A stretch of DNA of 64,000 nucleotides from SAR324 cluster bacterium (GTDB lineage: Bacteria > SAR324 > XYD2-FULL-50-16), in the NCBI GenBank assembly GCA_028282885.1, contig JANQGX010000008.1:1-64000 (forward strand). Direction: 5' to 3'. A program made the translations under genes and the position numbers. How positions within the stretch are numbered: position 1 is the first letter of the stretch; each line of letters starts with the position of its first letter. Positions 14,663 to 62,541 of the stretch are shown in pieces. Below the pieces are notes generated by a model. That model was not told the DNA's origin, made no database searches, and saw only the letters and a program-made list of their open reading frames with translations.

Positions 14663-14711
14663 CACGAATTGAGCACACATCAGAGAAATTATAAAGCTTG
14701 TTGGCTGCCCA

Positions 14712-40676: not shown

Positions 40677-40699
40677 ATCCATACCATCCGGGAGGAAAC

Positions 40700-42274
40700 A
40701 TGATTACTCTGACCATTGGCGATCTGTATGACCGATGTGTGCAGTTTTTCGGCGACAGCACAGCCATCACCTTCAAAGATCGTTCTTATACCTATCGGGA
40801 TATGGGACATCATGCGGATTGCCTTGTTACCGCCCTGGATAGAGTAGGGCTGAAAAAAGGTGACAAGGTCGGTTTTCTGATGGCCAATTGCCCTGAATAT
40901 ATCTTTTGCGAAATTGCGGTTGCCAAGCTGGGATGCACCCGAGTGCCCTTGGCGGTCCTGCTTAATCCGGATGATCATGTTTACATGCTCAATCTGGTTG
41001 AATGTACGACACTGATCTATCACGAGAAACTGGCAGATCGTATCAAGGAGATGATGCCCAAACTGGAAACCGTTACCAATTATATTTGTGTTGCTGAAGA
41101 CGCTTCCAGCGTGATGGATGGCCACCTGCATATGCAAACCCTGATGAAGGAAAATCAACCTTCGAACCTGAAAGTCGAAATTGATCCAGAAGATCTGGTG
41201 GGGATTTACTTTACCGGCGGAACAACCGGCAAGCCTAAAGGGGTCATGCTTTCACACAGGGCCTGGGTTTACACAGTGCTGATGGAAACCCTGGATTTTG
41301 ATTTTGGCCGTGAAGAGGTTTTTGCTTACATGACGCCCCTGACACACGCCGGTGGGTGTTTGATGTTGCCGGTGTTCCTGCGGAAAGGCAGGTGTGTAAT
41401 TCTCGACCATTTTGATCCCGGGGAGTTTCTAGAGTGTGTACAGAAAGAGAATGTCACTATGACTTTTCTGGTCCCCACCATGATCTACGTTCTCCTCGAT
41501 CATCCGGATTTGAACAACTATGATCTGAGCAGCCTGAGAAACGTCATTTATGGAGCCTCTGCCATCGCACCGGAGCGGCTGAAACAAGCTGTAACGACTT
41601 TTGGTCCAATTTTTACCCAGCTTTTCGGCCAGACGGAAGCGCCGATGGTGTTTAGCTCCCTGCCCAGGGAGGATCACGTAATTGAAGATCCTGAACGGGA
41701 AAGGCAGATTTTCGCATCTGCTGGTCGTCCTACCTTTCATGCGGAAGTCAAACTCATCGGGGATGATGGCAAGGAGGTCGAACAGGGAGAGAAAGGTGAG
41801 ATAGTGGTTCGCTGTGCTAACATGATGAGTGGTTATTATAAAAATCCCGAAGCCACCGCAGATACCATCAAAAACGGTTGGCTCCACACCGGGGATATTG
41901 CCAGACAGGATGAGGAAGGATTTATCTATATTGTCGATCGGAAGAAGGATATGATTATCAGCGGCGGATTCAACATATTCCCCCGCGAGATCGAGGATGT
42001 TCTATTTGAACATCCGGCTGTAAAGGATGCAGCGGTTATCGGGTCGCCTCATGACAAATGGGGAGAAGAGGTCAGGGCCGTGGTTGTTTTGAGGGAGAAG
42101 GATGCAGCAACGACAGAAGACCTGATCGCATTTGTAAAAGAGAAGAAAGGCAGCCTGGTATCACCCAAGAAGGTTGACTTCTGGGACAGCATTCCACTGA
42201 CCAACCTGGGAAAGGTCGATAAAAAGGCCATCCGTGCCAAGTATTGGGAAGGTAAAGACAGGATGATTTCTTAA
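40700..42274 (+). CDS. Acyl-CoA ligase (AMP-forming)
   Basis: A 524-residue adenylate-forming ligase, preceded by GGGAGG. Signature elements are YFTGGTTGKPKGVMLSH, the FGQTEAPM substrate region, HTGDIARQDEEGF, DRKKDMIISGGFNIFPREIE and the C-terminal Lys in NLGKVDKKAIR. It is not close to the other ligase at 36592 beyond family motifs, so it likely accepts a different acid. It ends the acyl-CoA operon and is followed by a strong terminator. Confidence 0.92.
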   Translation: MITLTIGDLYDRCVQFFGDSTAITFKDRSYTYRDMGHHADCLVTALDRVGLKKGDKVGFLMANCPEYIFCEIAVAKLGCTRVPLAVLLNPDDHVYMLNLVECTTLIYHEKLADRIKEMMPKLETVTNYICVAEDASSVMDGHLHMQTLMKENQPSNLKVEIDPEDLVGIYFTGGTTGKPKGVMLSHRAWVYTVLMETLDFDFGREEVFAYMTPLTHAGGCLMLPVFLRKGRCVILDHFDPGEFLECVQKENVTMTFLVPTMIYVLLDHPDLNNYDLSSLRNVIYGASAIAPERLKQAVTTFGPIFTQLFGQTEAPMVFSSLPREDHVIEDPERERQIFASAGRPTFHAEVKLIGDDGKEVEQGEKGEIVVRCANMMSGYYKNPEATADTIKNGWLHTGDIARQDEEGFIYIVDRKKDMIISGGFNIFPREIEDVLFEHPAVKDAAVIGSPHDKWGEEVRAVVVLREKDAATTEDLIAFVKEKKGSLVSPKKVDFWDSIPLTNLGKVDKKAIRAKYWEGKDRMIS

Positions 42275-48615: not shown

Positions 48616-48774
48616 CCGGAACCTTGACTAAAGGGCAACTTTACCGTTCAAGTCAGTCTGTCTGCATCTAATCGGGGTAAACTCTATTGACGCCCCGATC
48701 CCAATCTCCCATTGATAAATCCCAGTGGTTTTTTTATTGACATTTCCATTTGAGGTTGTAGACTACCGCATAAG

Positions 48775-48808
48775 TTGTATATAACAAATTTAATTGTATG
48801 TAACAAAT
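48775..48808 (+). promoter_or_regulatory. Direct-repeat GntR-type operator candidates
   Basis: Two copies of TTGTATRTAACAAAT start at 48775 and 48794, 19 bp apart. Each contains the inverted half-sites TTGT-N5-ACAA, as GntR/HutC operators often do. They lie about 200 bp before the GntR gene. A TTGACA at 48737 followed after 16 bp by a weak TAGACT could be the promoter that they control. The rest of the 387-bp gap (48616-49002) shows no gene. Confidence 0.5.
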
Positions 48809-49002
48809 ATATGCACTACAATTAGATAGCCAAGCCTTGCCAGCGTGAATGCCGAGGCCCGGACAGGTATAAGGGTGAATGAGTCGGATCGATTGGATTT
48901 GAGAATAGAGAAAGCACAGGCTGATTCGCCGGATCTATTGCGATTCGGGAAGCAATATTTTTTAATAGTATCGTGATATCAAACCGTTGGAAAACAGATA
49001 CA

Positions 49003-49791
49003 ATGAGTGAAGAGCAAACTCCAAAATACATTCATGTTTACAGGAAACTGCGCCAACTTATTGAAGAGGGTTATGCGCCTATCGGATCCAAACTACCACC
49101 GGAAAGCAACCTTGTTGAAACCTATCAAGCAAGCCGGATAACAATCAGAAAAGCCCTGGGCTTGCTGGTGCATGAAGGTTTTGTACAAAGCAAACGGGGC
49201 AGCGGTCACCGGGTGGTTTCTAATCGGGTGATATCATCAAGTTGTTTTACATCTTTTACCGAAATGGTATTGGCTGCCGGAATGCAGCCATCCACCCAAA
49301 TCATTCAGATCAAAACGGTCCTTGCACGGAGTTTTATCAATCAGACCTTACCCACCGGCATCAAAGATAACGAAAAATTGGTCCTGGTTGAGAGACTGCG
49401 TCTGGTTGATCGGATTCCTAAAATCGTGATGCGTGCCTGGATTCCCAAACGATTGGTACCGGGATTAAAAGAAGAGGATTTTGCCTGCAACGGGCGGGAG
49501 CAATCTATCCTGAGTTTACTGCAGAGAAAATACGGTTTGTCCATCGATTATGGCTCAGAGGAGATCAGGCCGGTGTTACCGAATGAAAGAATCGCCGATT
49601 TGTTACAGATCCCCCCCGACAGACCCATAATCCGACATTTTTGTGCGGTATTTTCCCGTACGGAAACACTGATTATGTACGAAGAGTCGTTTCGTGTTGA
49701 TGTCCTGTTTTTTGAATTGAACGGTGCCGAACGGAAGTTACAGATGAAACTTAACCAGTCTTTGGAGAGTATTGTTTATGAATCGTCTTGA
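49003..49791 (+). CDS. GntR-family regulator with UTRA domain (HutC subfamily)
   Basis: A 262-residue transcription factor, start chosen at the ATG at 49003 (a GTG 10 codons upstream is alternative). The winged helix is clear: IHVYRKLRQLIEEGYAPIGSKLPPESNLVETYQASRITIRKAL (read in parts), then GFVQSKRGSGHRV. The rest is a UTRA ligand domain, which usually binds sugars or sugar phosphates. It heads the sugar operon (epimerase, DhaL, DhaK, aldolase) and probably represses it through the TTGT-N5-ACAA repeats. Confidence 0.88.
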   Translation: MSEEQTPKYIHVYRKLRQLIEEGYAPIGSKLPPESNLVETYQASRITIRKALGLLVHEGFVQSKRGSGHRVVSNRVISSSCFTSFTEMVLAAGMQPSTQIIQIKTVLARSFINQTLPTGIKDNEKLVLVERLRLVDRIPKIVMRAWIPKRLVPGLKEEDFACNGREQSILSLLQRKYGLSIDYGSEEIRPVLPNERIADLLQIPPDRPIIRHFCAVFSRTETLIMYEESFRVDVLFFELNGAERKLQMKLNQSLESIVYESS

Positions 49792-49865
49792 TCAGCGAGA
49801 AAATATGTTGGCAATTCTGCCAGATATCCAATACGGCTTTTACTTGTAAACAAACGAGGAAAACA

Positions 49866-50705
49866 ATGAAGATAGGCATTCACCTGGCATTATGGATGAA
49901 CACCTGGAATGATGACATTCTGCCCTATGCCTCCAAGGCAAGCGAGATTGGCTATGATGGGGTTGAACTGTCCTTGTTGGGAGACGTTAATACAAACGCA
50001 CAGAAAGTCGGAAATGAGATCAGGTCCATGGGGCTGGAAATAACCTGTGCTACCGGATTGGCTCCGGAAACCGATATTGCTGCTTTGGATGAAACCCCAC
50101 GTAAAGCCGGGATAAGAACCATGAAAGAGGCCATCGCAACGACCAGCCAACTGGGGGCCGATCAGCTAGCAGGCGTGATTTACGCAGCTTGGGGAGTTAC
50201 GGATTGGGAAAACCGGAAAGAGCGGTTGAAATGGTCTGCTGACAGTTTGTTTGAGATTTCGAAAACCGCTGAGCAATATGAAGTTCATTTGGGACTTGAA
50301 GCCATCAACCGATATGAGTCCGATCTGCTGAATACCGCAGAACAGGCATTGGAGTTGACCCGGCAAATTGATTCGCCATGGTTTGGAGTGCATCTGGACA
50401 GCTATCATATGAATATCGAAGAAAAGGATCCGGCATCAGCCATCCTGGCATGTGGATCTCTCTTGAAACATTATCATGTTGTTGACAATGATCGGGGTGT
50501 TCCGGGGACGGGTAAGATTGATTTCCCAAGTCAGGCTGAAGCGTTAAGAAAAATTGACTATGAGGGATGGATTACCTGTGAGATGTTTGTCCAGGCTTGT
50601 TTGCCGGTCAGTCCGGATCTTAATATATGGCGACCGATCGAATCAGATCCGGATACTGCTGCTGTTTCCGCGTTAAACAATATCAAAAGGTTATTCAATG
50701 GATAA
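49866..50705 (+). CDS. Sugar phosphate isomerase/epimerase-like, D-tagatose/D-psicose 3-epimerase type
   Basis: A 279-residue TIM-barrel enzyme of the xylose-isomerase-like family. The ATG at 49866 after GAGGAAAAC is the start. The metal ligands of ketose 3-epimerases align: Glu145 in GLEAINRY, Asp178 in HLDSYHMNIEE, His204 in HYHVVD and Glu239 in ITCEMF, and the RGVPGTGKIDF segment holds the substrate-binding Arg210. It would interconvert ketoses at C3. Its end overlaps the DhaL gene by 8 bp, so it is part of one operon. Confidence 0.85.
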   Translation: MKIGIHLALWMNTWNDDILPYASKASEIGYDGVELSLLGDVNTNAQKVGNEIRSMGLEITCATGLAPETDIAALDETPRKAGIRTMKEAIATTSQLGADQLAGVIYAAWGVTDWENRKERLKWSADSLFEISKTAEQYEVHLGLEAINRYESDLLNTAEQALELTRQIDSPWFGVHLDSYHMNIEEKDPASAILACGSLLKHYHVVDNDRGVPGTGKIDFPSQAEALRKIDYEGWITCEMFVQACLPVSPDLNIWRPIESDPDTAAVSALNNIKRLFNG

Positions 50706-51333
50706 GCAAGCCGCCAAATTGTATTTTCAACAACTCAATGAGTTTTTTCAGTCTAACAAGGATGAACTGAATCGATTGGATGCCGCCGTTGGAGATGGAG
50801 ATCATGGGTCGACTCTGTCCAGGGGAATGAAGGCTGGTTATGAAGCCACTAAGGGCTCCGATTCCCAATGCGCGGAACTGTTTGTTGAAGCGGCGAAGGC
50901 CTTCCAGGACGCTACCGGTGGAGCCAGTGGAATTTTGTTTTCAGGTATTTTTCAGGGGATCGGAAACAGCGGTAAAGGATGTGAAACACTAACCCTGAAC
51001 CATGTTTATGAGGGATTACAATTTGCTGTCGGTCAGATCAAGATTATTGGAGAAGCATCCGTTGGGGATAAGACAATGCTGGATGCCCTTGCCCCGGCAG
51101 TCGAAGAATTGAATCGGGTAAAAGCCTCGAAAGAGGATACCGCCCTGGAACAGGTGGTACAGGCAGCTCAAAAAGGAGCATCAGCAACCATTGGCATGGC
51201 TGCCAGGATGGGTCGTTCAAGATATGTTGCTGACGGCGGGAAGGGACATATCGATCCGGGAGCGCAATCTGTTGTGTATCTATTGACCATTCTTCATCAA
51301 TGCTGGAGCAATCCCTTTAGATCAGAGATATAA
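50698..51333 (+). CDS. Dihydroxyacetone-kinase DhaL-like (ADP-binding) subunit
   Basis: A 211-residue all-helical nucleotide-binding subunit. It shows the Mg-ADP motif LDAAVGDGDHG (D28, D33, D35, H36), then TGGASGILFSG, SVGDKTMLDALAP and the C-terminal RMGRSRYVADGGKGHIDPGAQS, all conserved in DhaL. It starts 8 bp inside the epimerase gene and ends just before DhaK, so gene order is L then K. No DhaM phosphotransferase is in the window, so the phosphate donor (ATP directly, or PEP via DhaM elsewhere) is open. Confidence 0.9.
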   Translation: MDKQAAKLYFQQLNEFFQSNKDELNRLDAAVGDGDHGSTLSRGMKAGYEATKGSDSQCAELFVEAAKAFQDATGGASGILFSGIFQGIGNSGKGCETLTLNHVYEGLQFAVGQIKIIGEASVGDKTMLDALAPAVEELNRVKASKEDTALEQVVQAAQKGASATIGMAARMGRSRYVADGGKGHIDPGAQSVVYLLTILHQCWSNPFRSEI

Positions 51334-51334
51334 T

Positions 51335-52336
51335 ATGAAAAAGATAATCAACAACCCCGATCACATCGTCGATGAAATGATTGAAGGATATGTGTCTGCC
51401 TATCCCGATATTGTAAAGTGTCACGAAAAAAATTCGCGAATTGTCATGAGAGCCAATCCAAAACCGACCGACAAAGTGAGGATAATCATTGGCAACGGTT
51501 CAGGGCATGAGCCAATAGCCATGGGTTGGGTTGGTGAAGGAATGCTTGATGCCAATGCGGTTGGTGAGTTGTTTGCAGCACCATCTCCTTCCCTAATACA
51601 AGAGACCATCGAGGCCGTAGATACCGGCGCAGGTGTATTAGTACTGATTTCCAACCATTCCGGCGACCTTATCAACTCAAAAAGTGCACTAGTCAACGCA
51701 AAAGCCGCCGGGTGTAATGTTGACATGCTGGTAATGTACGACGACATCTCTTCAGCTCCCAGGGAAGACAGCAGGAACCGACGTGGGGCGGCCGGCACAA
51801 CTTTTATTTATAAAATTCTGGGTGCCTTTGCAGAACAGGGTGCGTCCTTGATCGAATTGAAGCATTTGGGAGAAACGATTCGCGATCACACTTGCACCCT
51901 GGGTGTTTCAGTGAATCCGGGGATTTCACCGCTTACCGGGCAAGAGATGTTTTCCCTGCCTGATGACAAAATTTATGTCGGCATGGGAGTGCACGGTGAA
52001 CCCGGAATAGCCGAGCTCGAAATGACATCCTGCGATGAAATTGTCGAATTCGTGATGAGCAAAATTCTGTCGGATCTCCCTTTTCAGTCCGGTGATCGCG
52101 TTTTGGTCATGGTAAATAACATGGGAGGTTCAACATTAATGGAACAGCTCATTATCTATCGTAAAATCGATAGTATTTTAAAGAGAGGGAACATCGAGGC
52201 GCTTTCACCGTTAATCGGCGCACTGGTCACTACCCAGGAAACCGCAGGGTTTTCGATATCACTTTGCAAAGTGACGCCGCAAATGGAAGCACTATGGAAT
52301 GCTCCCTTTAAAGTACCGTTCTTCTACAAAGTATAA
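51335..52336 (+). CDS. Dihydroxyacetone-kinase DhaK-like (substrate-binding) subunit
   Basis: A 333-residue subunit that binds the keto substrate. Key residues are present: GNGSGHEP (His58), NHSGD (Asp111, catalytic base) and the covalent-binding His220 in GMGVHGEPG, corresponding to E. coli H218. The overall order is that of DhaK. In this operon the true substrate is probably a longer ketose rather than dihydroxyacetone, phosphorylated at the C1 hydroxyl; related kinases act on erythrulose. It is 1 bp after the DhaL stop and 30 bp before the aldolase. Confidence 0.9.
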   Translation: MKKIINNPDHIVDEMIEGYVSAYPDIVKCHEKNSRIVMRANPKPTDKVRIIIGNGSGHEPIAMGWVGEGMLDANAVGELFAAPSPSLIQETIEAVDTGAGVLVLISNHSGDLINSKSALVNAKAAGCNVDMLVMYDDISSAPREDSRNRRGAAGTTFIYKILGAFAEQGASLIELKHLGETIRDHTCTLGVSVNPGISPLTGQEMFSLPDDKIYVGMGVHGEPGIAELEMTSCDEIVEFVMSKILSDLPFQSGDRVLVMVNNMGGSTLMEQLIIYRKIDSILKRGNIEALSPLIGALVTTQETAGFSISLCKVTPQMEALWNAPFKVPFFYKV

Positions 52337-52366
52337 TCAATACTTTTTAAAAATAAAGTTGGGTAA

Positions 52367-53374
52367 ATGAATCACGAGATATGTTCGGGTAAAAGGAATC
52401 GGTTAAAATCATGTCTTACGCCTGACGACGGGTTTATGGCGGCAGTTGCAATTGATCAGGGATCAAGTCTGCAGGATCTGCTCTTGCAATCGCAGAAAAC
52501 GAAAGGCAGTCCCGATAAGCCGGATTTAGAAACATTTAAAACTACATTAACAGAGCACTTCAGCCGTCATACCTCGGCGATGCTTTTTGATTTTCGATAT
52601 GGAGATGCCTGCCAGAAGATTGCAGATCCGGAATCGGGAGTGATCCGGGCTTATGAAACAGACGTATATGCAACAGGTTCCCTGGATCGTTTGACAGCAA
52701 TTCCTCACAATCAAAGCGTCATTCGGTTAAAGGAGAAAAGGGCCAATGCGATTAAACTGTACCTCTATTATGACCCGGATGACTCGTCCGATGTTAACGA
52801 TCAAAAGCATGCCTTGGTGGAAAAGGTTGGTGCCGAATGTTACGCCCATCAGATGCCCTTTTTGTTTGAACCGCTTACTTACCGTCGGGACACTGATCCG
52901 GCTGGAGAGTCGTATGTAAAAATAAAACCCGACCTGGTCGCAAGAGCGATGAAAGAGTTCTCCAAGAAACGCTACCTTGTCGACATACTCAAGGTGGAAC
53001 TTCCGGTGAATATTAAAACGGTTGAAGGATTTGCTTCCGACGGGAGTTCAGCATTATTTACACATGAGGATGCCCTAAACCATTTTCGAACTTGTGCCGA
53101 TTCAACTCACCTTCCGTTTATCTACCTCAGCGGAGGCGTTACTTTTGATGAGTTTAAGGGATCATTGAAACTGGCAAACCAGGCGGAAGTGAGTTATGCC
53201 GGATTTTTGTGCGGCAGGGCCATTTGGCATGACGCAATCGAACAATATGCCAATTTCGGGAGCGTGGGATTGGAGCAGTGGGCTTTGGAAACCGGCGTTC
53301 CGAGATTAAATGAACTCAAAGCCATAGCAGAGGGGCATGCGAAGATCGACTTAGATGCCATAAGTTCCGCATAA
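52367..53374 (+). CDS. Tagatose-bisphosphate-aldolase-like class I aldolase (LacD/YihT family)
   Basis: A 335-residue class I aldolase. The Schiff-base Lys is K209 in DILKVELPVN, and Glu168 in PFLFEPLTY matches the acidic catalytic residue of LacD. The enzyme should cleave a ketose 1-phosphate (or 1,6-bisphosphate) to DHAP and an aldehyde; family relatives use tagatose-1,6-bisphosphate or sulfofructose-1-phosphate. It is the last gene of the epimerase–DhaLK operon, which ends in a terminator 40 bp downstream. Confidence 0.88.
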   Translation: MNHEICSGKRNRLKSCLTPDDGFMAAVAIDQGSSLQDLLLQSQKTKGSPDKPDLETFKTTLTEHFSRHTSAMLFDFRYGDACQKIADPESGVIRAYETDVYATGSLDRLTAIPHNQSVIRLKEKRANAIKLYLYYDPDDSSDVNDQKHALVEKVGAECYAHQMPFLFEPLTYRRDTDPAGESYVKIKPDLVARAMKEFSKKRYLVDILKVELPVNIKTVEGFASDGSSALFTHEDALNHFRTCADSTHLPFIYLSGGVTFDEFKGSLKLANQAEVSYAGFLCGRAIWHDAIEQYANFGSVGLEQWALETGVPRLNELKAIAEGHAKIDLDAISSA

Positions 53375-53413
53375 TCGCTGACGCTCTTCAGTCCAAAGCA
53401 ATTGTGCGAACTG

Positions 53414-53439
53414 TGGCATGGTTGAGATGCCATTTTTTT
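53414..53439 (+). terminator. Rho-independent terminator after the aldolase gene
   Basis: TGGCAT (53414-53419), a 7-nt loop and ATGCCA (53427-53432) form a perfect 6-bp stem followed by seven T's. It separates the catabolic operon from the transporter operon. Just beyond it, TTCTGA and TCAGAA (53460-53482) form an 11-nt-spaced inverted repeat that may be an operator. Confidence 0.8.
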
Positions 53440-53608
53440 CAAATCAGGGTTGGGTATATTTCTGAAATGATCGATATCAGAAGTAACCCCCCTTCCAATT
53501 AAATTAATCCAGATAAGGAGGAAATCGAAGCGATTTTTTTAGCCCGTGAGACATCAGAATTTGATAACAAGTTTAACCAACTCAACAAAATTTGGAGGAG
53601 AAAGAATT

Positions 53609-54856
53609 ATGAAAAAGCATTTATTCTCTGTTTTGGTTCTGATACTTACTATCACAACCTTGTCGGTATGGAGTGCCAGCCAGGCGGAAGCTGGTGATAA
53701 ATTTGAAGACCGTTTTCAAAAAATGTCCTGGAATGGGATAGTCGCCGAGGCAAAAGGCCAGGACGTTTATTTTTATATGTGGGGTGGCTCCGATGTGATA
53801 AATAACTGGGTGAATGGGTTTTATGCCAGCAGGCTTAAATCCAAATACGGGGTAACAATTGAGATGGTGCCGATTACCGGCGCTCAGGTTTATGTTAACA
53901 AGGTACTCAGTGAAAAACAGGCTGGAAAAAACACGCGGGGTGCAGTCGACCTGATGTGGATTAACGGTGAAAACTTCAAAACGATGCGGCAGGGGAACCT
54001 GCTATTTGGTCCTTATGCTCACAGGTTGCCGAATATGAAGTATCTTGATGCTTCCGATCCCGCATTTCAATATGACTTCGGATATCCTGTCGAGGGATAT
54101 GAGTCTCCCTATGGGGCCGCTCAAATGGTCATGATTTATGATCAGGCAAGGATTGAAAATCCGCCGACCTCCATTAAGGCGCTAATTCAATGGATTAAAA
54201 CAAATCCCGGCAAATTCACCTACCCGGCACCCCCGGATTTTACCGGCTCGGCATTTGTTCGTCATTTTTTCTACTATGTAGCCGGAGGGCCGAGTTCGCT
54301 GATGGGAGCCTTTGACCAGGCCAAATTCGATGAAGTATCGGCCAAGTTTTATAAGTTGATGAACGAGCTTGAACCCTATCTATGGAGGAAAGGAACGACG
54401 TATCCCGAGGATATTACAAAACTGAATGAGCTGTTTGCCAATGGGGAAGTGCTGTTGAACTTTAACTACAGTCCCGGTGATGCAGCATCTAAAGTGGCTG
54501 CAGGCAAGTATCCCGATTCTGTCCGGACCTTCGTTTTTGACGGAGGAACCATCGGCAATATCAATTATCTGGCGATTCCCTTCAATTCAAGCGCCAAAGC
54601 GGCTGCCATGGTTGCCTGTAACGAAATGCTCTCTCCTGAAGTTCAATATTCAATGGCGGCCGTACGTAACAACTGGCCCCTGGTGGTGAATGTTGAGAAA
54701 CTTCCAACCGAGTGGAAAAATAAAGTGAACAATATAAAAAGACACCCGTCGGTTCTGTCCGGTGAAGTTCTCTCCACACACCAGCTTCCGGAATTGATGG
54801 CAGACTGGTTGGTAGCCATAGAAAAAGGGTGGCAGAAAAACGTACTGGAGAAGTAA
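53609..54856 (+). CDS. ABC transporter substrate-binding protein, YnjB-like
   Basis: A 415-residue extracytoplasmic solute-binding protein. The ATG at 53609 follows TTGGAGG, and a signal peptide covers about residues 1-27 (ending near ASQAEAGD). The mature part has YFYMWGGSDVINNWVNGFYAS and a NGENFKTMRQGNLLFGPYA segment, typical of the YnjB/type-1 extracellular solute-binding family. Its natural ligand here is unknown. It is followed by a nucleoside hydrolase, two permeases and an ATPase, so a nucleoside or glycoside is a candidate. Confidence 0.88.
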   Translation: MKKHLFSVLVLILTITTLSVWSASQAEAGDKFEDRFQKMSWNGIVAEAKGQDVYFYMWGGSDVINNWVNGFYASRLKSKYGVTIEMVPITGAQVYVNKVLSEKQAGKNTRGAVDLMWINGENFKTMRQGNLLFGPYAHRLPNMKYLDASDPAFQYDFGYPVEGYESPYGAAQMVMIYDQARIENPPTSIKALIQWIKTNPGKFTYPAPPDFTGSAFVRHFFYYVAGGPSSLMGAFDQAKFDEVSAKFYKLMNELEPYLWRKGTTYPEDITKLNELFANGEVLLNFNYSPGDAASKVAAGKYPDSVRTFVFDGGTIGNINYLAIPFNSSAKAAAMVACNEMLSPEVQYSMAAVRNNWPLVVNVEKLPTEWKNKVNNIKRHPSVLSGEVLSTHQLPELMADWLVAIEKGWQKNVLEK

Positions 54857-54958
54857 AGCCCGATTTGAATAAGCTTGTTTGCAGGTATAGCGGGATACCG
54901 TTGTGCCTGCCTGGATACCGCTCAATCACTTGGATTCAGCGAAATATCAGGAGCATAA

Positions 54959-55909
54959 ATGAAAACAAAAGTTATATTTGATTGCGATAACACAATGGGC
55001 AGACCCACAAGGGACGTGGATGATGGATTGGTCCTGCTGTATCTCCTGGGCCGGGAGGAAGTGGATTTGCTGGGTATCACGAATACGTTTGGAAACAGCA
55101 CCCTGAAAGAGGTTGAATTTTACACAAAGAAATTGTTGAAGGAGGTTGGACGGGAAGATATCCCCCGATTCAGCGGGGAGCCGTTTGCCAACCAGAACGC
55201 TTATGTTGCCAGTACCTCCGCCGGTTTGTCGCGATATGAAGATGAGTTTACCGATTATCAGGCTGAAAACAACAAGGCTGCTGAATTTTTGGTTGAGGAG
55301 GTTAACAAGTACCCCGGTAAAGTAGTCATACTTGCTGCGGGCCCCATGGGAAACCTCTACGAAGCCTCCAGGAGAGATCCTGGGTTTTTCTCCAAGGTCA
55401 AGGAAATTGTGGCCATGGGGGGATATGTTCATGATCTTGTGGTGGGCTGGAAACAGTGCAAGGAACTTAACATGGCCAGCAATCCGAAGGCTGCCGAAGC
55501 CATGTTGTATGCTTCCTGCCCGGTAACCGTAATGAACGGTCATGTGTGCCTTCAAGCACCGTTTACTTATGAAGACCTGGAAAAAGCGGATTTCTGGTCG
55601 GAAGACCGTCGTCGCATCGTTTCCGATTGGCTTGATTATATCCATCAAACCTTTGGCGTGGAGTGTTTTTTTCTCTGGGATCTCGTTCCGGCCGTCTATA
55701 TCACCAATCCGGAAATTTTTGACCGAAACGAAATCATGATCTATGCCAATGAGGAAAGTTTGAAAACCGGAATGCTAAAACCGCATGTCGGACCCGGAAA
55801 AGGCACCAACATTAACATGCCTGAAAAAATTCTGGATCCCAAAGCTTTTATGGATATCCTTTTTGCTGCATGGAGGAGGGAGTCCATGATCAATGGCGAG
55901 AAAAGGTAA
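54959..55909 (+). CDS. Nucleoside hydrolase family protein
   Basis: A 316-residue N-ribohydrolase-fold protein. The usual calcium motif DxDPGxDDA is expanded here to FDCDNTMGRPTRDVDDGL (D8, D10, D19, D21, D22), and other core features remain: TNTFGNSTL, VILAAGPMGNLYEA and GGYVHDLVVGWKQCKELNMASNPKAAE (in parts). No signal peptide, so it acts inside the cell on an imported nucleoside or related N-/O-glycoside, releasing a base and a sugar. It lies 12 bp before the first permease gene. Confidence 0.83.
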   Translation: MKTKVIFDCDNTMGRPTRDVDDGLVLLYLLGREEVDLLGITNTFGNSTLKEVEFYTKKLLKEVGREDIPRFSGEPFANQNAYVASTSAGLSRYEDEFTDYQAENNKAAEFLVEEVNKYPGKVVILAAGPMGNLYEASRRDPGFFSKVKEIVAMGGYVHDLVVGWKQCKELNMASNPKAAEAMLYASCPVTVMNGHVCLQAPFTYEDLEKADFWSEDRRRIVSDWLDYIHQTFGVECFFLWDLVPAVYITNPEIFDRNEIMIYANEESLKTGMLKPHVGPGKGTNINMPEKILDPKAFMDILFAAWRRESMINGEKR

Positions 55910-55921
55910 TTTGGAGTTCTC

Positions 55922-56782
55922 ATGTCAAAGCGACTAACCATCACTCTGCTGCTCAGTCCGGCAATACTAATCATCGTTACACTTTTTATCGGTGGCTTTT
56001 TGTTCGGTCTGTTCCAAAGTTTCGGATATATGCCGATTATCGGGCAACACGATATGAGCCTGGACGCTTACAGGAACATGTTTACGGATACAAAGTTCTT
56101 TGGATCACTTTTTCTGACGCTGTGGATATCGCTGGCTGCCACGATATTGACCATCATATTTGCCATTATTACGGCATTGGCAATGCGGCAGACGTTTAAA
56201 GGAAGGCGGATTATCAATTTTCTTTACCAATTTCCCATCACGATACCGCACTTGGTTATCGCGGTCGGGGCCATGCTGTTGTTCTCACAGAGTGGTATGT
56301 TTGCCCGAATTTTTTATGCCCTGGGAATCATCTCTGACCAAAGCCAGTTCCCGATCCTTGTTTATGACAATTTGGGAATCGGGATTATTTATGTCTATCT
56401 CTGGAAGCAGATTCCCTTTATGGGGCTGATCGTCATATCGATATTGCAATCCGTCGGTAACGATTATGAAGAGTTGGCCCGATCACTGGGGGCCAACAGG
56501 TGGCAAACCTTCAGATATGTTCTTTTACCGTTGATCGTCCCCGGAATCCTGCCGATTTCGATTATCTGTTTTGCCTACACCTTCGGATCATTTGAGGTTC
56601 CTTATCTGTTGGGCAAACCCTTCCCTGCGGTCCTCTCGGTTCTGGCGTACAGACTTTTTGAGGATGTTGATTTGAATGCGCGTCCGGAAGCGATGGCAAT
56701 GGCTGTGTTTATCGCCGTTTTTATCAGTATTCTGGTCATTTTCTATAAAAAACTCATTAAACGGATAACGGGGAGAACATAG
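55922..56782 (+). CDS. ABC transporter permease 1
   Basis: A 286-residue permease with six or so membrane segments. The EAA loop is DYEELARSLGANRWQTFRYV followed by LLPLIVPGI. It is preceded by TTGGAG and is followed 3 bp later by the second permease gene. Together they form the heterodimeric channel for the YnjB-like binding protein. Confidence 0.92.
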   Translation: MSKRLTITLLLSPAILIIVTLFIGGFLFGLFQSFGYMPIIGQHDMSLDAYRNMFTDTKFFGSLFLTLWISLAATILTIIFAIITALAMRQTFKGRRIINFLYQFPITIPHLVIAVGAMLLFSQSGMFARIFYALGIISDQSQFPILVYDNLGIGIIYVYLWKQIPFMGLIVISILQSVGNDYEELARSLGANRWQTFRYVLLPLIVPGILPISIICFAYTFGSFEVPYLLGKPFPAVLSVLAYRLFEDVDLNARPEAMAMAVFIAVFISILVIFYKKLIKRITGRT

Positions 56783-56785
56783 AAC

Positions 56786-57652
56786 ATGAGTCAAAGCGCT
56801 GGTTTATCCAAAACTGGGGTAATTAAAAAACAATCCCATAAGCAGCGGCAAAGCAATGTGATGAGAAACATAGTCCTATTGGGAATTATAGTGGGGGTGA
56901 TTCTTCCGATGATTCCCCAGTTACTCTGGTCTTTCAGTTTTCGTTGGTATTTCCCGTCACTGTTACCGACGGAACTCAGCTCGAGGGCCTGGGTGTATGT
57001 TGCAAATCCGAATTCGAAGATACTTGAATCATTCATTGTTAGCCTCATCATTGCCCTGAGTGTAACAGCAATCGGAATAGTGGTGGGCGTGCCTGCCGGC
57101 AAGGCTCTTGGGATGTACAAATTCAGGGGAAAGGAGTTAATCGAGCTGATTATTCTGGCACCTACCATAGTTCCCGGTTTGGCAGTGATTATGGGAATTC
57201 AGATACTGTTTATCAGATTCGGTCTGTCGGACAATATAGTCGGGGTGATCATTGTCCATCTTCTTCCCTCGTTGCCCTATATGATTATCAGCATGGCAGG
57301 AGTATTTGCCAATTATGATCCTCAGTTCGAAGAACAAGCTCGTTCATTGGGTGCAAATGCAATTAAGACTTTTTACTATATTACGCTTCCCGTAATATTT
57401 CCGGGGATTGTTGTCGGTGCCATGTTCACCTTTCTGATTTCCTGGAGCCAGTACATCTTAACAATTATGGTGGGGGGCGGCCGTGTTATCACTCTTCCGG
57501 TTTTGCTCTTCTCTTTTGCCGGCTCGGGCGACAACGCCATTGCATCGGCATTGAGTATCATTTTTGTTCTTCCCGCAATTGTAATATTGATCGTTACTTC
57601 AAAATACTTATCCGGTAAATCAGGCGGAATGGGAGGCTTTGGAAGCATATGA
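56786..57652 (+). CDS. ABC transporter permease 2
   Basis: A 288-residue permease. Its EAA loop reads QFEEQARSLGANAIKTFYYI, then TLPVIFPGI. It has a basic, polar N-terminal tail before the first membrane segment (about 28-50). Its last four bases overlap the ATPase gene (ATGA), so their translation is coupled. Confidence 0.92.
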   Translation: MSQSAGLSKTGVIKKQSHKQRQSNVMRNIVLLGIIVGVILPMIPQLLWSFSFRWYFPSLLPTELSSRAWVYVANPNSKILESFIVSLIIALSVTAIGIVVGVPAGKALGMYKFRGKELIELIILAPTIVPGLAVIMGIQILFIRFGLSDNIVGVIIVHLLPSLPYMIISMAGVFANYDPQFEEQARSLGANAIKTFYYITLPVIFPGIVVGAMFTFLISWSQYILTIMVGGGRVITLPVLLFSFAGSGDNAIASALSIIFVLPAIVILIVTSKYLSGKSGGMGGFGSI

Positions 57653-58689
57653 CAGATGTAAAACTAAGAAACCTGGAAAAAGTATACGATGGTGCCAGCG
57701 AACCATCAGTCAAAAATCTAAGTCTGGATATCAATGCGGGTGAACTGGTAGCTCTTTTAGGTCCCTCAGGTTGTGGTAAGACGACCACATTAAAAATGGT
57801 AGGAGGGCTCCACGATGTCACCAGCGGTGAAGTTCTTTTCAATGGCGTAAGGGTCAACGACATTAGACCCGAGAAGCGGGAAGCTGTGATGGTCTATCAG
57901 AACTACCTGCTCTTTCCCTATATGACGATTGAGGATAATATAGGTTTCGGTCTGAAGATGCGTCATGTGGATAAGAAAGAGATTAAAAAAAGAGTGGGTG
58001 AAATGTTAAGCCTGGTCCGATTGGAAGGTTTTGAAACCCGCAAACCGGCACAGCTTTCCGGAGGACAGAAACAGCGGATTGCCCTGGCCCGAGCGCTGAT
58101 TATCAGGCCGAAAATCCTTCTGCTGGACGAACCTCTTTCCAATCTGGATGCCCACTTAAGGGACGAAATGAGAGAGATGATACTGAAGATTCACAAGAGT
58201 TTCGGCGTAACCACAATCTTTGTAACCCATGACCAGGAAGAAGCGGTATTATTGGCTGACCGAATCGCACTGATGTTTAACGGAGAATTGCATCAATACG
58301 GCAGTCCGCAGGAATTCTACGAAAAACCTGTCTCCAAGAAAGTCGCGGCGTTTTTCGGGAATGAGAATTTTCTTGCGGGTGTAAAAACGGGTGCAACAGT
58401 AAAAACTGAAATTGGTGATTTTGATGTGGAGAAATCAGATGTTCCGGATGGCAAGGTGACGATCGTCATACGTCCGGAATCCATTGTCCTGGGTGATACC
58501 GGCCACAACAGCTTTCAGGCGCCCATAAACCGCAGAATCTATATGGGAACATATACCAGGTATGATGTCCGGGTGGGGGGAAATGCCTGGAACGTTATCG
58601 GTGATCCCAATTATACAGAAGAATATGATGAAGGTCGGAACGCGTCATTTTCTTTACCAAAAGAAAAGATATGGATACTGGAAGAGTAA
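57649..58689 (+). CDS. ABC transporter ATPase (MalK/PotA-like)
   Basis: A 346-residue ATPase with Walker A GPSGCGKTT, signature LSGGQKQR, Walker B ILLLDEPLSNLD and switch VTHDQEEA. A C-terminal β-rich regulatory (TOBE-like) domain of about 100 residues follows, as in MalK and other sugar or polyamine importers. It completes the importer. The next gene, a FucI-type isomerase, starts just 5 bp after its stop. Confidence 0.93.
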   Translation: MTDVKLRNLEKVYDGASEPSVKNLSLDINAGELVALLGPSGCGKTTTLKMVGGLHDVTSGEVLFNGVRVNDIRPEKREAVMVYQNYLLFPYMTIEDNIGFGLKMRHVDKKEIKKRVGEMLSLVRLEGFETRKPAQLSGGQKQRIALARALIIRPKILLLDEPLSNLDAHLRDEMREMILKIHKSFGVTTIFVTHDQEEAVLLADRIALMFNGELHQYGSPQEFYEKPVSKKVAAFFGNENFLAGVKTGATVKTEIGDFDVEKSDVPDGKVTIVIRPESIVLGDTGHNSFQAPINRRIYMGTYTRYDVRVGGNAWNVIGDPNYTEEYDEGRNASFSLPKEKIWILEE

Positions 58690-58694
58690 TCACT

Positions 58695-60092
58695 ATGCGA
58701 CAATCCGGATTAAAGGTAGGTCTTGCCGGGCTCTATTTCGCCAATTTTGAGGCGCTTAAATATGATATTTACGGTCAGGCTGTAACTTCCGTCAAAGAAA
58801 TCTGCTCATCCCTGGGTTTGGAGAGCGTTTGTTTGGATAAGCCAGTTGGAACCGTTGATGAGGCTGAGCAGGGAATTAAAGAATTGAATGAAGCCGGTAT
58901 AGATTTTTTAATTCTACAGGCAAGCTCACTCTGTCTTGGCGATGTTATAAAGCCTTTTGTGGAAGGAAGCTTTCCAATTGGATTTTGGGCTGTTGAAGAA
59001 CCAACCTTGAAAGGAGAACTGCAGCTCAATTCCTTTACCGGTTTTAATATGGCGGTTTCCATAGCTCGTCACTGCAGTAAAAAAACCGATTATACCTGGT
59101 TCTTCGGAAACGGAGATAAACTATTCCGACAGAGATTAGCGAGAACGCTTCGTGCTTTGGATTCTATAAAGAGGTTGCGCGCCAGTCGTGTGGGGGTAAT
59201 CGGCGGGACTGTTCCCACCTTTGATAACCTTAGCTATGATTCAGGCGAGATTGCTAAGCGCCTGGGTGTTGAAATTGTTGAATATGGCATTGATGAGTTC
59301 CTGAATGCCGTCGGAAATACCAAACCTGAAGATGCATCGGAGGAAATTCAGGATCTAAAAGAGGCTGCATCTCAAATAAAAACCGAGCCGATATGGATTG
59401 ACAAAACAGGCACCCTGTTGAAAAATCTCAAGCATTTCGCCCAGTCTGAAAAACTGGATGCTATGGCCCTACGATGCTGGCCTGAATTTCAATCTGTGTT
59501 AAATATGGCGCCTTGCGCTGCAGTTGCCCGAATGAATGATTATAAGATTCCGGTTTCCTGTGAAGGAGATGTTCCTGGTGCGGTCAGTATGTTGATAGGT
59601 CGACTGATCAGCGGGAATGCCGTGACCATGAATGACCTGGTTGCCGTTGACCCGGAAAACGATCTCATTCAAATGTGGCATTGCGGTCCCGGTCCGAAAT
59701 CCTGGGCTGATGAGAAGGGTTGGATTCTCGATTATCATCATACTCTGAACAGAAGAGTTGCGGAAGGGGATCCCAAAACAGGGCTGTCTGCCGATATTTC
59801 CTTTAAGAAAATGCCTGTGACAACCTTAAGGCTATCCTCGGCCGGAGACAGTATGTTTGTTATGGAAGGTGAGGTCGTAGAAGGCCGCCATGCACCGTAC
59901 CCGGGCAGCGGAGGATGGATGGGAAACCTGACCATTAACGGTGAATCCCTCTCACTGGAAGAATTTATTGAAACCCTTGCTGTATACGGCCTGGAACACC
60001 ACTATCCGATGATGATGGGACATCATGAAACCATCTGTCGAGAGATGGCGAATTGGGCCGGATTAACCGTGAAGAAAAAGCAAGGTTGTTAA
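58695..60092 (+). CDS. L-fucose/L-arabinose isomerase family protein (FucI-like)
   Basis: A 465-residue aldose–ketose isomerase-like protein. The ATG at 58695 is chosen over one eight codons upstream, because GGAAGAG precedes it. The C-terminal active-site pattern is kept: ALRCWPEF (Glu264), CEGDVPGA (Asp292, metal), and a histidine-rich end (GLEHHYPMMMGHH). FucI is about 590 residues, so this is a compact member of the larger fold family. Context predicts that it converts the sugar released by the nucleoside hydrolase, or an imported aldose, into a ketose for the epimerase and DhaKL. Confidence 0.85.
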   Translation: MRQSGLKVGLAGLYFANFEALKYDIYGQAVTSVKEICSSLGLESVCLDKPVGTVDEAEQGIKELNEAGIDFLILQASSLCLGDVIKPFVEGSFPIGFWAVEEPTLKGELQLNSFTGFNMAVSIARHCSKKTDYTWFFGNGDKLFRQRLARTLRALDSIKRLRASRVGVIGGTVPTFDNLSYDSGEIAKRLGVEIVEYGIDEFLNAVGNTKPEDASEEIQDLKEAASQIKTEPIWIDKTGTLLKNLKHFAQSEKLDAMALRCWPEFQSVLNMAPCAAVARMNDYKIPVSCEGDVPGAVSMLIGRLISGNAVTMNDLVAVDPENDLIQMWHCGPGPKSWADEKGWILDYHHTLNRRVAEGDPKTGLSADISFKKMPVTTLRLSSAGDSMFVMEGEVVEGRHAPYPGSGGWMGNLTINGESLSLEEFIETLAVYGLEHHYPMMMGHHETICREMANWAGLTVKKKQGC

Positions 60093-60211: not shown

Positions 60212-61168
60212 ATGGCCAAACTCACTCAAGTAGCAGGATCACCTCCCACGACTTTTCTGGATTTCCCTTCAATGGATAGTATTGAAAATTTGAATGCCGA
60301 TATCGCCGTTCTTGGAATTCCATTCGGGATGCCCTATCAACCATCCGAAATGGCGAATGATCAAAGCCTGGCACCGGACGCAATCCGTCAATTCAGCACT
60401 TATGCCCATGAAACCAGGGAGCATTTTGATTTTGACCTTGGAGGCCCGTTGCTTGACGAACGAGACATCAGGGTGATTGATTGCGGTAATGTTACAGCGG
60501 ATTTGTCCGATCCCGCCGAACATTATAGAAGGGCGGAAGCTGTGGCAGGAATGATTCTGGGTGCGGGAACAACCCTGATTGCATTGGGCGGTGACCATGG
60601 AGTTACAATTCCGGTATTGCAGGCGTTGAAAAACACTGGCAAATCTATCACCCTGGTTCATATAGATGCGCATCTGGATTGGCGGAATGAAGTCAATGGC
60701 GAAACCCGGGGATATTCCAGCCCGATACGACGCGCATCAGAAATGCCATGGATTTCCGGCATAGTCCAAATTGGGATGCGGGGTGTGGGAAGTGCCCGGA
60801 TTAAGGAAGTCAATGATGCGAAGACCTTTGGCGCGAAAATCATAACCGCATACGAGCTGCATCAAAGAGGCGTTGAGTCCGTGATTGATGAAATCCCTGA
60901 CAATACTGATTACTATTTGACCATAGATGCCGACGGACTGGACCCTTCAATCATGCCTGCGGTGATGTCGCAGACTCCCGGTGGATTGACCTGGATTCAA
61001 ATCAGGGCTCTTATTCATGGTTTGGTCAACAAAGGACGGGTCCTCGGTATGGATCTGGTCGAGATTGCGCCCGGTTATGATATCAACAATACCTCCCTTA
61101 TCCATGCTGAAAGACTGATTTGCAACTTCATCGGTACCTCCGTTCGGGCCGGCTATTATGATCAATAA
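60212..61168 (+). CDS. Ureohydrolase (agmatinase/arginase family)
   Basis: A 318-residue binuclear manganese enzyme that cleaves a guanidino group to urea and an amine. The start is the ATG at 60212; the frame opens 53 codons earlier within the isomerase gene. Metal ligands are His129 in LGGDHG, Asp152/His154/Asp156 in HIDAHLDW and the Asp pair in IDADGLDPS. The substrate could be agmatine, guanidinobutyrate or another guanidino acid. It lies 119 bp after the isomerase and is followed by a GNAT gene, which suggests a side branch handling a nitrogenous product of the imported compound. Confidence 0.87.
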   Translation: MAKLTQVAGSPPTTFLDFPSMDSIENLNADIAVLGIPFGMPYQPSEMANDQSLAPDAIRQFSTYAHETREHFDFDLGGPLLDERDIRVIDCGNVTADLSDPAEHYRRAEAVAGMILGAGTTLIALGGDHGVTIPVLQALKNTGKSITLVHIDAHLDWRNEVNGETRGYSSPIRRASEMPWISGIVQIGMRGVGSARIKEVNDAKTFGAKIITAYELHQRGVESVIDEIPDNTDYYLTIDADGLDPSIMPAVMSQTPGGLTWIQIRALIHGLVNKGRVLGMDLVEIAPGYDINNTSLIHAERLICNFIGTSVRAGYYDQ

Positions 61169-61183
61169 TCAAAGAATACTCTT

Positions 61184-61843
61184 ATGTCCGCCATGCCCGG
61201 TTCCTCGGAATTGAATTTTAACAGAAAACAGATCCACTACCTTGATAGCTTGCCAGATGAGTATTTGAAACAAGCAGCGGAGCTCTATTTCAGTTCCCTT
61301 CATGAGAAGCTTGTACCTATTCTTGGAAATGATGAAAGGGCGACAAGAGTCGTGGCAGACAGCATTGTCAGTCAAAAAGGCACGGTTGCCATCTGTGATA
61401 ATAATCTGGTAGGGATCATAGGTTTCCAGACCAAGGATGGCGGGTTTCTGAATCCAAGTCTGAAATCCATGATCAGAGCTTATGGCCTGTTTAACGGCCT
61501 ATTGCGCCTGGCCGGTTTGGCAGTATTGCATCATCCGACAAATGCTGATGAGATATATATTGATGGTATTGCTGTGCATCCCGGGATAAGGGGAAACGGA
61601 ATCGGGACTCATTTGCTTGGATTATTGGAGTCGACGGCATCAAAAAAGGGAATCAAAAGAATCTCGCTTGATGTCATCGATACCAATCCCAAGGCGCAGG
61701 CGCTTTATGAACGACTGGGTTTTGTCGCAATGAAAACACAGAGTATCCGGCCTCTGAATCTGCTGATCAAGTTCCCCTTCAGGTCAGTTACCTTTATGGT
61801 CAAGGATGTTGGTTCGCAACAAACAAAAATGGAAAGAAAATGA
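61184..61843 (+). CDS. GNAT-family N-acetyltransferase
   Basis: A 219-residue acyltransferase. The acetyl-CoA pocket is seen in IYIDGIAVHPGIRGNGIGTHLL (motif A, QxxGxG/A-like RGNGIG), then ISLDVIDTNPKAQALYERLGFV, the usual motif B. The acceptor is unknown. It begins 15 bp after the ureohydrolase and overlaps the DUF4386 gene by 4 bp, so all three are likely one transcript. Confidence 0.88.
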   Translation: MSAMPGSSELNFNRKQIHYLDSLPDEYLKQAAELYFSSLHEKLVPILGNDERATRVVADSIVSQKGTVAICDNNLVGIIGFQTKDGGFLNPSLKSMIRAYGLFNGLLRLAGLAVLHHPTNADEIYIDGIAVHPGIRGNGIGTHLLGLLESTASKKGIKRISLDVIDTNPKAQALYERLGFVAMKTQSIRPLNLLIKFPFRSVTFMVKDVGSQQTKMERK

Positions 61844-62541
61844 CGGATGAAAATGTAAATTACAGGGCCTATGCGATCTTTATTGTGATTGAAGTGATTT
61901 TGATAGTTATCCCGTTGATTGTGCTGGGGGCTGCCATTGGTTGGCCGGGCAGTTTGGACGAACCGGCAAGTGCGAACCTGGTGGCAATACACCAAAATGC
62001 CGGGGCTGTTCAATTCGGGTATTTCGTTTATCTCGTCTATTCGATCCTTATTCTGCCGCTGAGCGTTGTTTTCTATCGTCTGTTGATCATTGACAATGAT
62101 CCTTTTGATCCACTTCTACTGACAGCCCTGGGCTTTGGAATAGCTTCGGCAATATCAAGAACCTTTGGTATCATCCGCTGGTTTACCGTAATGCCGTACC
62201 TGTTTACCGAGCTGCATCATCGTCCGCACAGTGTTTCGATGGTTTATGAGAGTTTCAACCGCTATGCAGGTTCCGTCGGGGAAATCCTGGGTGTTCAGAT
62301 GTTTATGGTGAGTTTTATTCTGTTGGTTAGTTTTACAATTATGGTCCGCAAAACCGTCTTTCCCAAATGGGTTGCCTATAGCGGTGTGATCGCTGCTGCA
62401 TTTCTGGCGATGGGGATTTTGGAGCTGTTCGGAATTGAAGTCAGCGGGATGCTGCTCACCCTGAGTGGCACGATTCTCCATCTCTGGTTATTTGCCATTG
62501 CTGTATTTCTGTTTTTTCGAAAATCCCAATCGGCCAAGTGA
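61840..62541 (+). CDS. DUF4386 membrane protein
   Basis: A 233-residue protein with about six or seven hydrophobic segments and motifs typical of DUF4386 (AISRTFGIIRWFTVMPYLF). Function is unknown in the family. It starts inside the GNAT stop codon (ATGA). It may be a permease or membrane partner of the operon, but nothing in the sequence proves this. Stop at 62541. Confidence 0.75.
   Translation: MTDENVNYRAYAIFIVIEVILIVIPLIVLGAAIGWPGSLDEPASANLVAIHQNAGAVQFGYFVYLVYSILILPLSVVFYRLLIIDNDPFDPLLLTALGFGIASAISRTFGIIRWFTVMPYLFTELHHRPHSVSMVYESFNRYAGSVGEILGVQMFMVSFILLVSFTIMVRKTVFPKWVAYSGVIAAAFLAMGILELFGIEVSGMLLTLSGTILHLWLFAIAVFLFFRKSQSAK

Follow-up and report, generated by a model that had tools for sequence, protein, structure and literature searches.

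A conserved gene module with predicted DhaKL-type ketose 1-phosphorylation and aldol cleavage in a SAR324 bacterium and other, mostly marine bacteria

The dihydroxyacetone phosphate (DHAP) shunt (MtnK or MtnP, MtnA, and DrdA/Ald2) converts a 5-modified pentulose 1-phosphate to DHAP and a substituted acetaldehyde. The sulfoglycolytic Embden-Meyerhof-Parnas pathway (sulfo-EMP) and the hybrid sulfo-EMP1/2 (SqvD or YihS, YihV, YihT) turn an aldose into a ketose, phosphorylate it at C1 and cleave the product by a class I aldolase, again to DHAP and an aldehyde. Here, we analyze an eleven-gene locus of a SAR324 cluster bacterium for which an analogous outcome is predicted with a different set of enzymes. 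It is encoded on the plus strand of contig JANQGX010000008.1, the first 64,000 nucleotides of which were studied and are referred to as the window.

As in the DHAP shunt, imported nucleosides may serve as substrates. In contrast to it, isomerization would precede phosphorylation, the kinase is of the DhaKL type (Dak1 plus Dak2) instead of MtnK, the isomerase has an AraA/FucI fold and is not MtnA, the aldolase belongs to class I (LacD) rather than class II, and a 3-epimerase is added. With sulfo-EMP the locus shares homologous isomerase and aldolase families, but it combines them with DhaKL instead of a PfkB-type kinase, with an extra 3-epimerase and a YnjB-type importer, and with a nucleoside-hydrolase-like enzyme in place of sulfoquinovosidase; moreover, its aldolase lacks the arginine of the DQR motif. 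No PfkB- or PfkA-type sulfofructose kinase was found in the window locus or in the 29 related clusters described below, and neither a sulfoquinovosidase nor sulfonate-specific genes were found in the window locus. By gene content, a set with the isomerase acting first, a DhaKL kinase and an added C3 epimerase differs from both known routes. An earlier note on this DNA knew of no described pathway with such a set, and none was found in the open-access literature, subscription papers being outside the search.

We interpret the locus as a regulon through which the cell takes up and degrades a furanoside with a sugar moiety not open to phosphorylation at C5, and estimate the probability of this interpretation at roughly 0.6. 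The most likely chemistry, judging from the predicted enzymes, is the conversion of a C5-modified pentofuranoside to DHAP and a substituted acetaldehyde, X-CH2-CHO, where X denotes the C5 substituent. An ATP-binding cassette (ABC) importer would take up the glycoside, and the nucleoside-hydrolase-like enzyme would free the C5-modified pentose, the source being either a nucleoside or an O-furanoside. An SqvD-like isomerase would convert the aldose to the 2-ketose, an enzyme of the D-tagatose 3-epimerase type would invert C3, DhaK would bind the ketone covalently while DhaL brings ATP for phosphorylation at C1, and the LacD-type aldolase would split the C3-C4 bond of the C5-modified pentulose 1-phosphate. 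A GntR-UTRA regulator would keep both transcription units repressed until an intermediate appears. The reaction order, each enzyme activity, the identity of X and the choice of a pentose over a hexose are what we infer here; gene content, module conservation, the shared operator motif, the catalytic residues and the isomerase fold were established by sequence comparison.

All eleven genes are intact and adjoining, with small gaps or overlaps, according to open reading frame (ORF) calls and family searches. They form two transcription units, one for enzymes and one for the transporter, which are parted by a terminator-like hairpin:

48737..48764, plus strand: promoter-like site TTGACA-16-TAGACT (10/12 consensus match only)
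48775..48808, plus strand: two tandem operator-like repeats TTGTATRTAACAAAT (exact copies, 48775-48789 and 48794-48808), probable GntR sites
49003..49791, plus strand: GntR-UTRA (HutC-type) transcriptional regulator (family match; cluster regulators 32-36% identical)
49866..50705, plus strand: ketose 3-epimerase of the D-tagatose/D-psicose 3-epimerase family (AP_endonuc_2; ligands intact)
50698..51333, plus strand: DhaL subunit, ATP/Mg side of the kinase (Dak2; TIGR02365)
51335..52336, plus strand: DhaK subunit, ketose-binding (Dak1; catalytic His and Asp intact)
52367..53374, plus strand: predicted LacD-family class I ketose-1-phosphate aldolase (Lys and Glu kept; DQR Arg replaced by Gly)
53413..53440, plus strand: terminator-like hairpin (53413-53433) and T run closing the enzyme unit (sequence inspection)
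53546..54856, plus strand: ABC solute-binding protein, YnjB/PRK11622 type (family match; ATG preceded by a ribosome-binding site near 53609)
54959..55909, plus strand: nucleoside hydrolase (PF01156; no ortholog of the alphaproteobacterial cluster hydrolase)
55922..56782, plus strand: ABC permease 1 (ORF and similarity to the cluster importer)
56786..57652, plus strand: ABC permease 2 (ORF and similarity to the cluster importer)
57649..58689, plus strand: ABC ATPase with TOBE domain (family match)
58671..60092, plus strand: predicted aldose-ketose isomerase, SqvD/SftI-like, AraA/FucI fold (family score and predicted fold)

The gene list given in the earlier note (GntR-UTRA, epimerase, DhaL, DhaK, LacD aldolase, ABC importer, nucleoside hydrolase) is confirmed by ORFs and family matches. 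The regulator frame is open from GTG 48973, with ATG 49003 as the probable start, and the epimerase probably starts at ATG 49866. The solute-binding protein scores 485 bits against its YnjB-type family (cut-off 203). The tandem repeats, directly 3' of the promoter-like site, are the only exact copies of TTGTATRTAACAAAT in the window; an operator copy 5' of the transporter unit was looked for and not found.

On comparative evidence, the eleven-gene set is a conserved module rather than a chance neighborhood. A tblastn search against plasmids revealed the same set on three marine alphaproteobacterial plasmids, and a scan of genome contigs with an isomerase alignment yielded 34 loci. Mapping by tblastn found the eleven genes complete in 29 loci, composed of the three plasmids and 26 contigs. 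Nearly all of these belong to marine Alphaproteobacteria, two of them to the same species, Marinovum algicola, while one is gammaproteobacterial (Granulosicoccus). The usual order is epimerase, DhaL, DhaK, aldolase, (aldehyde dehydrogenase), GntR, isomerase, ATPase, solute-binding protein, permeases, hydrolase, and the aldehyde dehydrogenase (ALDH) gene lies between aldolase and regulator in 16 loci. Each of the 29 complete loci is adjoined by genes for a thiolase-like enzyme, a zinc-ribbon protein and an AMP-forming CoA ligase. In two more loci (L061, L042) the set breaks off at contig ends or has no aldolase gene, and three further genomes (L033, L034, L038) carry the set in two unlinked loci, both halves of which were found. 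There, one half comprises the thiolase-like, zinc-ribbon, CoA ligase and isomerase genes and the other (L075-L077) the binding protein or permeases, ATPase, epimerase, DhaL, DhaK and aldolase, with related GntR and hydrolase genes in one or the other half. Transporter and enzyme operons are found together in the 29 loci and the three split genomes, which contradicts the refuting condition of the earlier note that they do not co-occur in related genomes, and its proposed logic of import, hydrolysis, isomerization, C3 epimerization, C1 phosphorylation by DhaKL and retro-aldol cleavage is supported.

A survey of 348 genomes from a single family detected the cluster aldolase in 6 and the thiolase-like lyase in 7, with both present in 6 (Fisher p 3e-12). 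In the seventh lyase-bearing genome (L090), a short-chain dehydrogenase stands at the place of the aldolase, alongside the genes for kinase, epimerase, isomerase, hydrolase and importer. A gene similar to this dehydrogenase sits after the aldolase in L075. In the genus of the window's organism, the set is absent from the two other sequenced species, which yielded distant isomerase and aldolase matches only, and it was therefore probably acquired by horizontal transfer. Across the 52 genomes of the class, too, the search revealed no more than remote homologs of isomerase and aldolase, and several of these adjoin a PfkB kinase. Viral contigs searched with the hydrolase gave no match.

Membership of the window in this module is indicated by protein similarity, tree topology and control sites. 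Between window and cluster proteins, identity amounts to 50-51% (DhaK), 47-48% (epimerase), 38-39% (aldolase), 34-42% (importer parts) and 27-29% (isomerase); the window importer is nearer to that of the split clusters (45-59%). In each of the 11 other genomes tested, the window DhaK matches the cluster DhaK best (50-55% identity), whereas the other DhaKs of these genomes, one to three where present, reach at most 39%. In the isomerase tree, window and clusters together split from PfkB-linked and other forms with support of 100/97, the window branch being long. The window's operator motif, allowing up to 4 mismatches of 15 within 130 bases upstream of each gene, was found in the alphaproteobacterial clusters upstream of 3 of 6 genes for a major facilitator superfamily (MFS) protein, 13 of 19 epimerase, 9 of 21 ATPase and 7 of 20 regulator genes. 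Against this stands a background of 2-3% of random stretches and 0-4% upstream of the internal genes for DhaL, DhaK, isomerase and hydrolase. Its presence upstream of the MFS gene ties the unit of MFS protein, thiolase-like enzyme and CoA ligase to the same regulator.

Catalytic residues were compared in 31 cluster sequences (30 for the aldolase) and the window. In the epimerase, the metal ligands E, D, H and E and the substrate contacts E, H and R are invariant, which bears out the four ligands seen in the earlier note; its score against NF051856 (214 bits) is below the cut-off of 300. Window and clusters likewise keep both His, including the covalently binding one, and the Asp of DhaK as well as the Mg-binding triad of Asp in DhaL, the latter scoring above the cut-off of TIGR02365 with 147 bits. 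The two separate subunits with intact catalytic residues, also described in the earlier note, thus hold. DhaK and DhaL are as complete as in the known dihydroxyacetone and erythrulose kinases, but DhaK forms a group of its own (50-55% within the module, at most 39% to other DhaKs), the module locus lacks DhaM, and its partners imply a longer ketose.

The aldolase retains the Schiff-base Lys, the acid Glu and the Arg of the GRA motif. With LacD tagatose 1,6-bisphosphate aldolases it shares the family, the Schiff-base Lys and the Glu at about 40% identity, but it scores 244 bits against the LacD equivalog TIGR01232, whose cut-off is 432. Its DQR motif reads DQG in 31 of 31 copies including the window, whereas the Arg is present in all five LacD sequences from the PDB that were aligned and in PfkB-linked homologs of the sulfo-EMP type. 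Given the role presumed for this Arg, its loss suggests that no charged group is recognized at the far end of the sugar. In contrast to LacD loci, the module has no LacAB/LacC and shows constant linkage to isomerase, epimerase and DhaKL. Tagatose 1,6-bisphosphate was set aside as the substrate due to the lost Arg and these gene partners, so that the confinement to this substrate that the earlier note had considered is unlikely. Together with the hydrolase positions described next, the lost Arg agrees with a ketose that is phosphorylated at C1 and cleaved and that bears no charge at its distal end.

The hydrolase of the clusters and that of the window both belong to PF01156 but are not orthologs, and no ortholog of the former was found in the window genome. 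The N-terminal Asp cluster, Asn168 and the C-terminal Asp, which are ligands of Ca and ribose, are kept. Asn160 and Glu166 of the Crithidia nucleoside hydrolase (CfIUNH) we take to be 5'-OH ligands, for which no usable open-access literature was found as a check. At the aligned positions, all 31 cluster hydrolases have P and S, and the window hydrolase has G and E. Loss of the presumed 5'-OH ligands together with a C1 kinase fits the requirement of a sugar without a usable 5-OH. Moreover, we argue that the recruitment of two different members of one furanoside-cleaving superfamily means that a ribofuranoside-like bond must be cut. The GH51-like arabinofuranosidase of two split clusters, described below, speaks for furanoside catabolism as well.

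Searches of Pfam and of PDB sequences gave no match for the isomerase. Its best family is the sulfoquinovose isomerase SftI, at 168 bits compared to a cut-off of 700. The AlphaFold model (mean confidence score pLDDT 89.8) matches L-arabinose isomerase with a template modeling (TM) score of 0.80 and L-fucose/D-arabinose isomerase with 0.75 in Foldseek. By its modeled fold it is a member of the AraA/FucI superfamily. The FucI-type assignment of the earlier note holds for the predicted fold, but not for the closest family.

Several points weigh against the interpretation as a route for a C5-modified pentose. Neither a pentose nor a C5 substituent can be proven from sequence, and SqvD-type isomerases act on a hexose. 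The functions of the compared hydrolase and aldolase positions are presumed ones. As for the hydrolase, that of the window has no orthology with its alphaproteobacterial counterpart, and of the two positions presumed to bind the 5'-OH it still has one intact. No ALDH was found in the window locus, and the window genome has neither an ortholog of the thiolase-like lyase (best 31%) nor an ArsK-like exporter (at most 35 bits). Finally, in L090 the short-chain dehydrogenase (14407-15237) replaces the aldolase in an otherwise complete cluster. By these comparisons, the window appears to carry the sugar half of the route only, and a simpler X (H or SCH3) is possible there.

In the Alphaproteobacteria, the genes adjoining the module suggest how X-CH2-CHO may be processed further. 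For the cluster ALDH, dehydrogenases of phenylacetaldehyde and betaine aldehyde give the highest scores; the CoA ligase is nearest to acetate-CoA ligases. Such affinities are expected for X-CH2-CHO and X-CH2-COOH. The ALDH would thus oxidize the aldehyde, and the CoA ligase would activate the acid. In all copies of the thiolase-like enzyme that span the sites, the nucleophilic Cys is Gly (GGGASG) and the His of the GHP motif is Ala (GAPVGATG type), while the HDCF motif reads YDSY, YDSF or YDAY. Lacking Cys and His and with an altered HDCF motif, the enzyme cannot be a normal thiolase. The Sal/Ltp2 retro-aldolases, which cut beta-hydroxyacyl-CoA, are distinguished by Gly for Cys, a YDxY/F motif and a DUF35-type partner (PMC12329534). 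The alphaproteobacterial lyase carries this signature, including the thiolase fold and the adjoining zinc-ribbon partner. It differs from the steroid side-chain aldolases in reading YDSY, YDSF or YDAY instead of YDCY or YDHF, in having a partner in which Pfam recognizes the zinc ribbon alone, and in being clustered with sugar genes, not steroid genes. According to the signature, X-CH2-CO-SCoA would probably lose acetyl-CoA in a retro-aldolase-like cleavage, X carrying a hydroxyl-like oxygen. The thiolase-fold enzyme and its zinc-ribbon partner would release acetyl-CoA and X, and the ArsK-like MFS protein would export X.

A set of genes at window positions 36592-42274 encodes a CoA ligase, a thiolase-like protein with a YDSY motif and without the canonical nucleophilic Cys, a ChsH2-type DUF35 protein, a MaoC hydratase and a FadD8-like CoA ligase. 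It resembles Sal/Shy-like degradation of acyl side chains and apparently has no tie to the sugar locus. As a counterpart of the alphaproteobacterial lyase module it was rejected because of 27-29% identity, a different gene order and its likeness to acyl-chain degradation.

For the MFS protein of the clusters, the arsenical exporter ArsK is the only NCBIfam match, at 52-107 bits compared to the NF033733 cut-off of 400, so that by family score it is ArsK-like, not ArsK. It is listed in 14 of the 14 genomes searched first and represents the best ArsK-family protein of the genome in 11 of them; Ruegeria-type clusters and L090 have a different MFS protein instead. Arsenosugars, i.e., 5-deoxy-5-dimethylarsinoyl ribofuranosides, are the dominant organoarsenicals of marine algae (PMC7345539). 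They are metabolized to dimethylarsinate and two-carbon arsenicals of the dimethylarsinoylethanol/dimethylarsinoylacetate (DMAE/DMAA) type (PMC6656958), and these known products are the species predicted by the proposed route. We therefore consider, as a tentative and rather doubtful possibility, that the module is a bacterial route for arsenosugar breakdown and that the window holds its sugar half or a route for a close analog. Aldol cleavage would then yield DHAP and dimethylarsinoylacetaldehyde, which would be oxidized to dimethylarsinoylacetate and activated with CoA. The Cys-less thiolase-fold enzyme would cleave the C-As bond, with a hydrated As-OH in place of the beta-hydroxyl, to acetyl-CoA and dimethylarsinate, the latter being exported by the ArsK-like protein. 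Such a substrate would account for more of the genes than the other readings, is proven by no sequence feature, and stays a minority option in our judgment. A search of the open-access literature for gene clusters of arsenosugar catabolism gave nothing usable. ArsJ and an ArsJ-associated glyceraldehyde-3-phosphate dehydrogenase, both above the NCBIfam cut-off, are encoded directly 3' of the cluster hydrolase in L043 (17599-20318); as evidence this adjacency was discarded as weak, since it occurs in 1 of 27 (L043) and ArsJ lies elsewhere in 11 further genomes.

An ordinary use of pentoses or nucleosides, in which ribose or arabinose, once released, isomerized, epimerized and phosphorylated at C1, would give DHAP and glycolaldehyde and the ALDH would form glycolate, appears improbable. 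In its favor, plain nucleosides and ketopentoses are substrates of the nucleoside hydrolase and epimerase families, the fold of the isomerase is that of L-arabinose isomerase, and a glycoside hydrolase family 51 (GH51)-like arabinofuranosidase is found within the importer genes of two split clusters, in the second by position only (in L076, 1551-3509 encodes 653 aa between permease and ATPase genes; L077 has a gap of equal size at the same place). However, plain pentoses usually enter metabolism by C5 phosphorylation, the presumed 5'-OH ligands are lost in all 31 alphaproteobacterial hydrolases, and the CoA ligase, the Cys-less thiolase-like enzyme and the ArsK-like exporter would be left without a role.

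Similarly improbable is a DHAP shunt for 5'-deoxyadenosine or methylthioadenosine (MTA), in which isomerase and DhaKL would stand in for MtnK and MtnA and the products would be DHAP and acetaldehyde or methylthioacetaldehyde. It would offer no use for the retro-aldolase-like thiolase homolog and its zinc-ribbon partner, and both nucleosides are usually intracellular and handled by MtnK/MtnA. Nonetheless, products and the bond cut would be those of the known shunt (PMC6079011, PMC12632272), a CoA ligase of the acetate type would suit acetate, and for the window, with its unrelated hydrolase and without the lyase module, X may be H or SCH3.

Sulfoquinovose or another sulfosugar, degraded by a sulfo-EMP variant with DhaKL in place of the PfkB kinase, is a very unlikely substrate. 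The isomerase is nearest to SftI/SqvD, the aldolase family includes the sulfofructose phosphate aldolase YihT, and in sulfo-EMP-like loci members of both families are paired with PfkB; the PfkB-type locus of Deinococcus also has a TIM-barrel (triosephosphate isomerase fold) glycosidase. Sulfoquinovose was set aside because genome G053 has an isomerase-LacD-PfkB locus (L066) in addition to the cluster, and PfkB-linked aldolases retain the Arg lost in all 31 cluster aldolases. In addition, the cluster contains no sulfoquinovosidase, and its isomerases are separated by the tree split mentioned above. Equally remote is the view that DhaKL acts only on dihydroxyacetone or a tetrulose and the aldolase on an unrelated substrate, the neighboring genes forming no common route: DhaKL enzymes are known as dihydroxyacetone and erythrulose kinases, but the order epimerase-DhaL-DhaK-aldolase is fixed, being shared by the window's phylum with Alpha- and Gammaproteobacteria, the operator is common, and the DhaK and aldolase subfamilies are specific for the cluster.

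Further genes were observed near these loci. Downstream on the same strand of the window, 60215-62538 encodes an agmatinase-type ureohydrolase, a GNAT acetyltransferase and a DUF4386 membrane protein, none of which turned up in the clusters of the Alphaproteobacteria. Elsewhere in the window's genome (L080, 7926-9038, contig C43) lies the gene for a second SqvD-like isomerase, close to a GntR-type match. Directly 3' of the cluster hydrolase, L037 (17683-19716) encodes a RhaD-type class II aldolase fused to a short-chain dehydrogenase, and L035 (16971-17717) a TauE/SafE-family exporter. Another variant may be present on a Candidatus Atribacteria contig (L028, 5612-9168), which combines a cluster-like isomerase with an RbsA-type importer, a DeoC/LacD-family aldolase of 235 aa and a C_GCAxxG_C_C redox protein.

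The module constitutes a conserved and regulated, predicted sugar pathway of 11 to 16 genes with a kinase family not known for such a role, and it occurs in about 30 mostly marine bacteria, among them cultured ones such as Marinovum, Paracoccus and Monaibacterium. As predicted, it would be a third route, beside the DHAP shunt and sulfoglycolysis, to open sugars that are blocked at the far end. If arsenosugars were the substrate, its enzymes would carry out a step of marine arsenic cycling that has been observed but lacks an explanation, and would include a new kind of enzymatic C-As bond cleavage.

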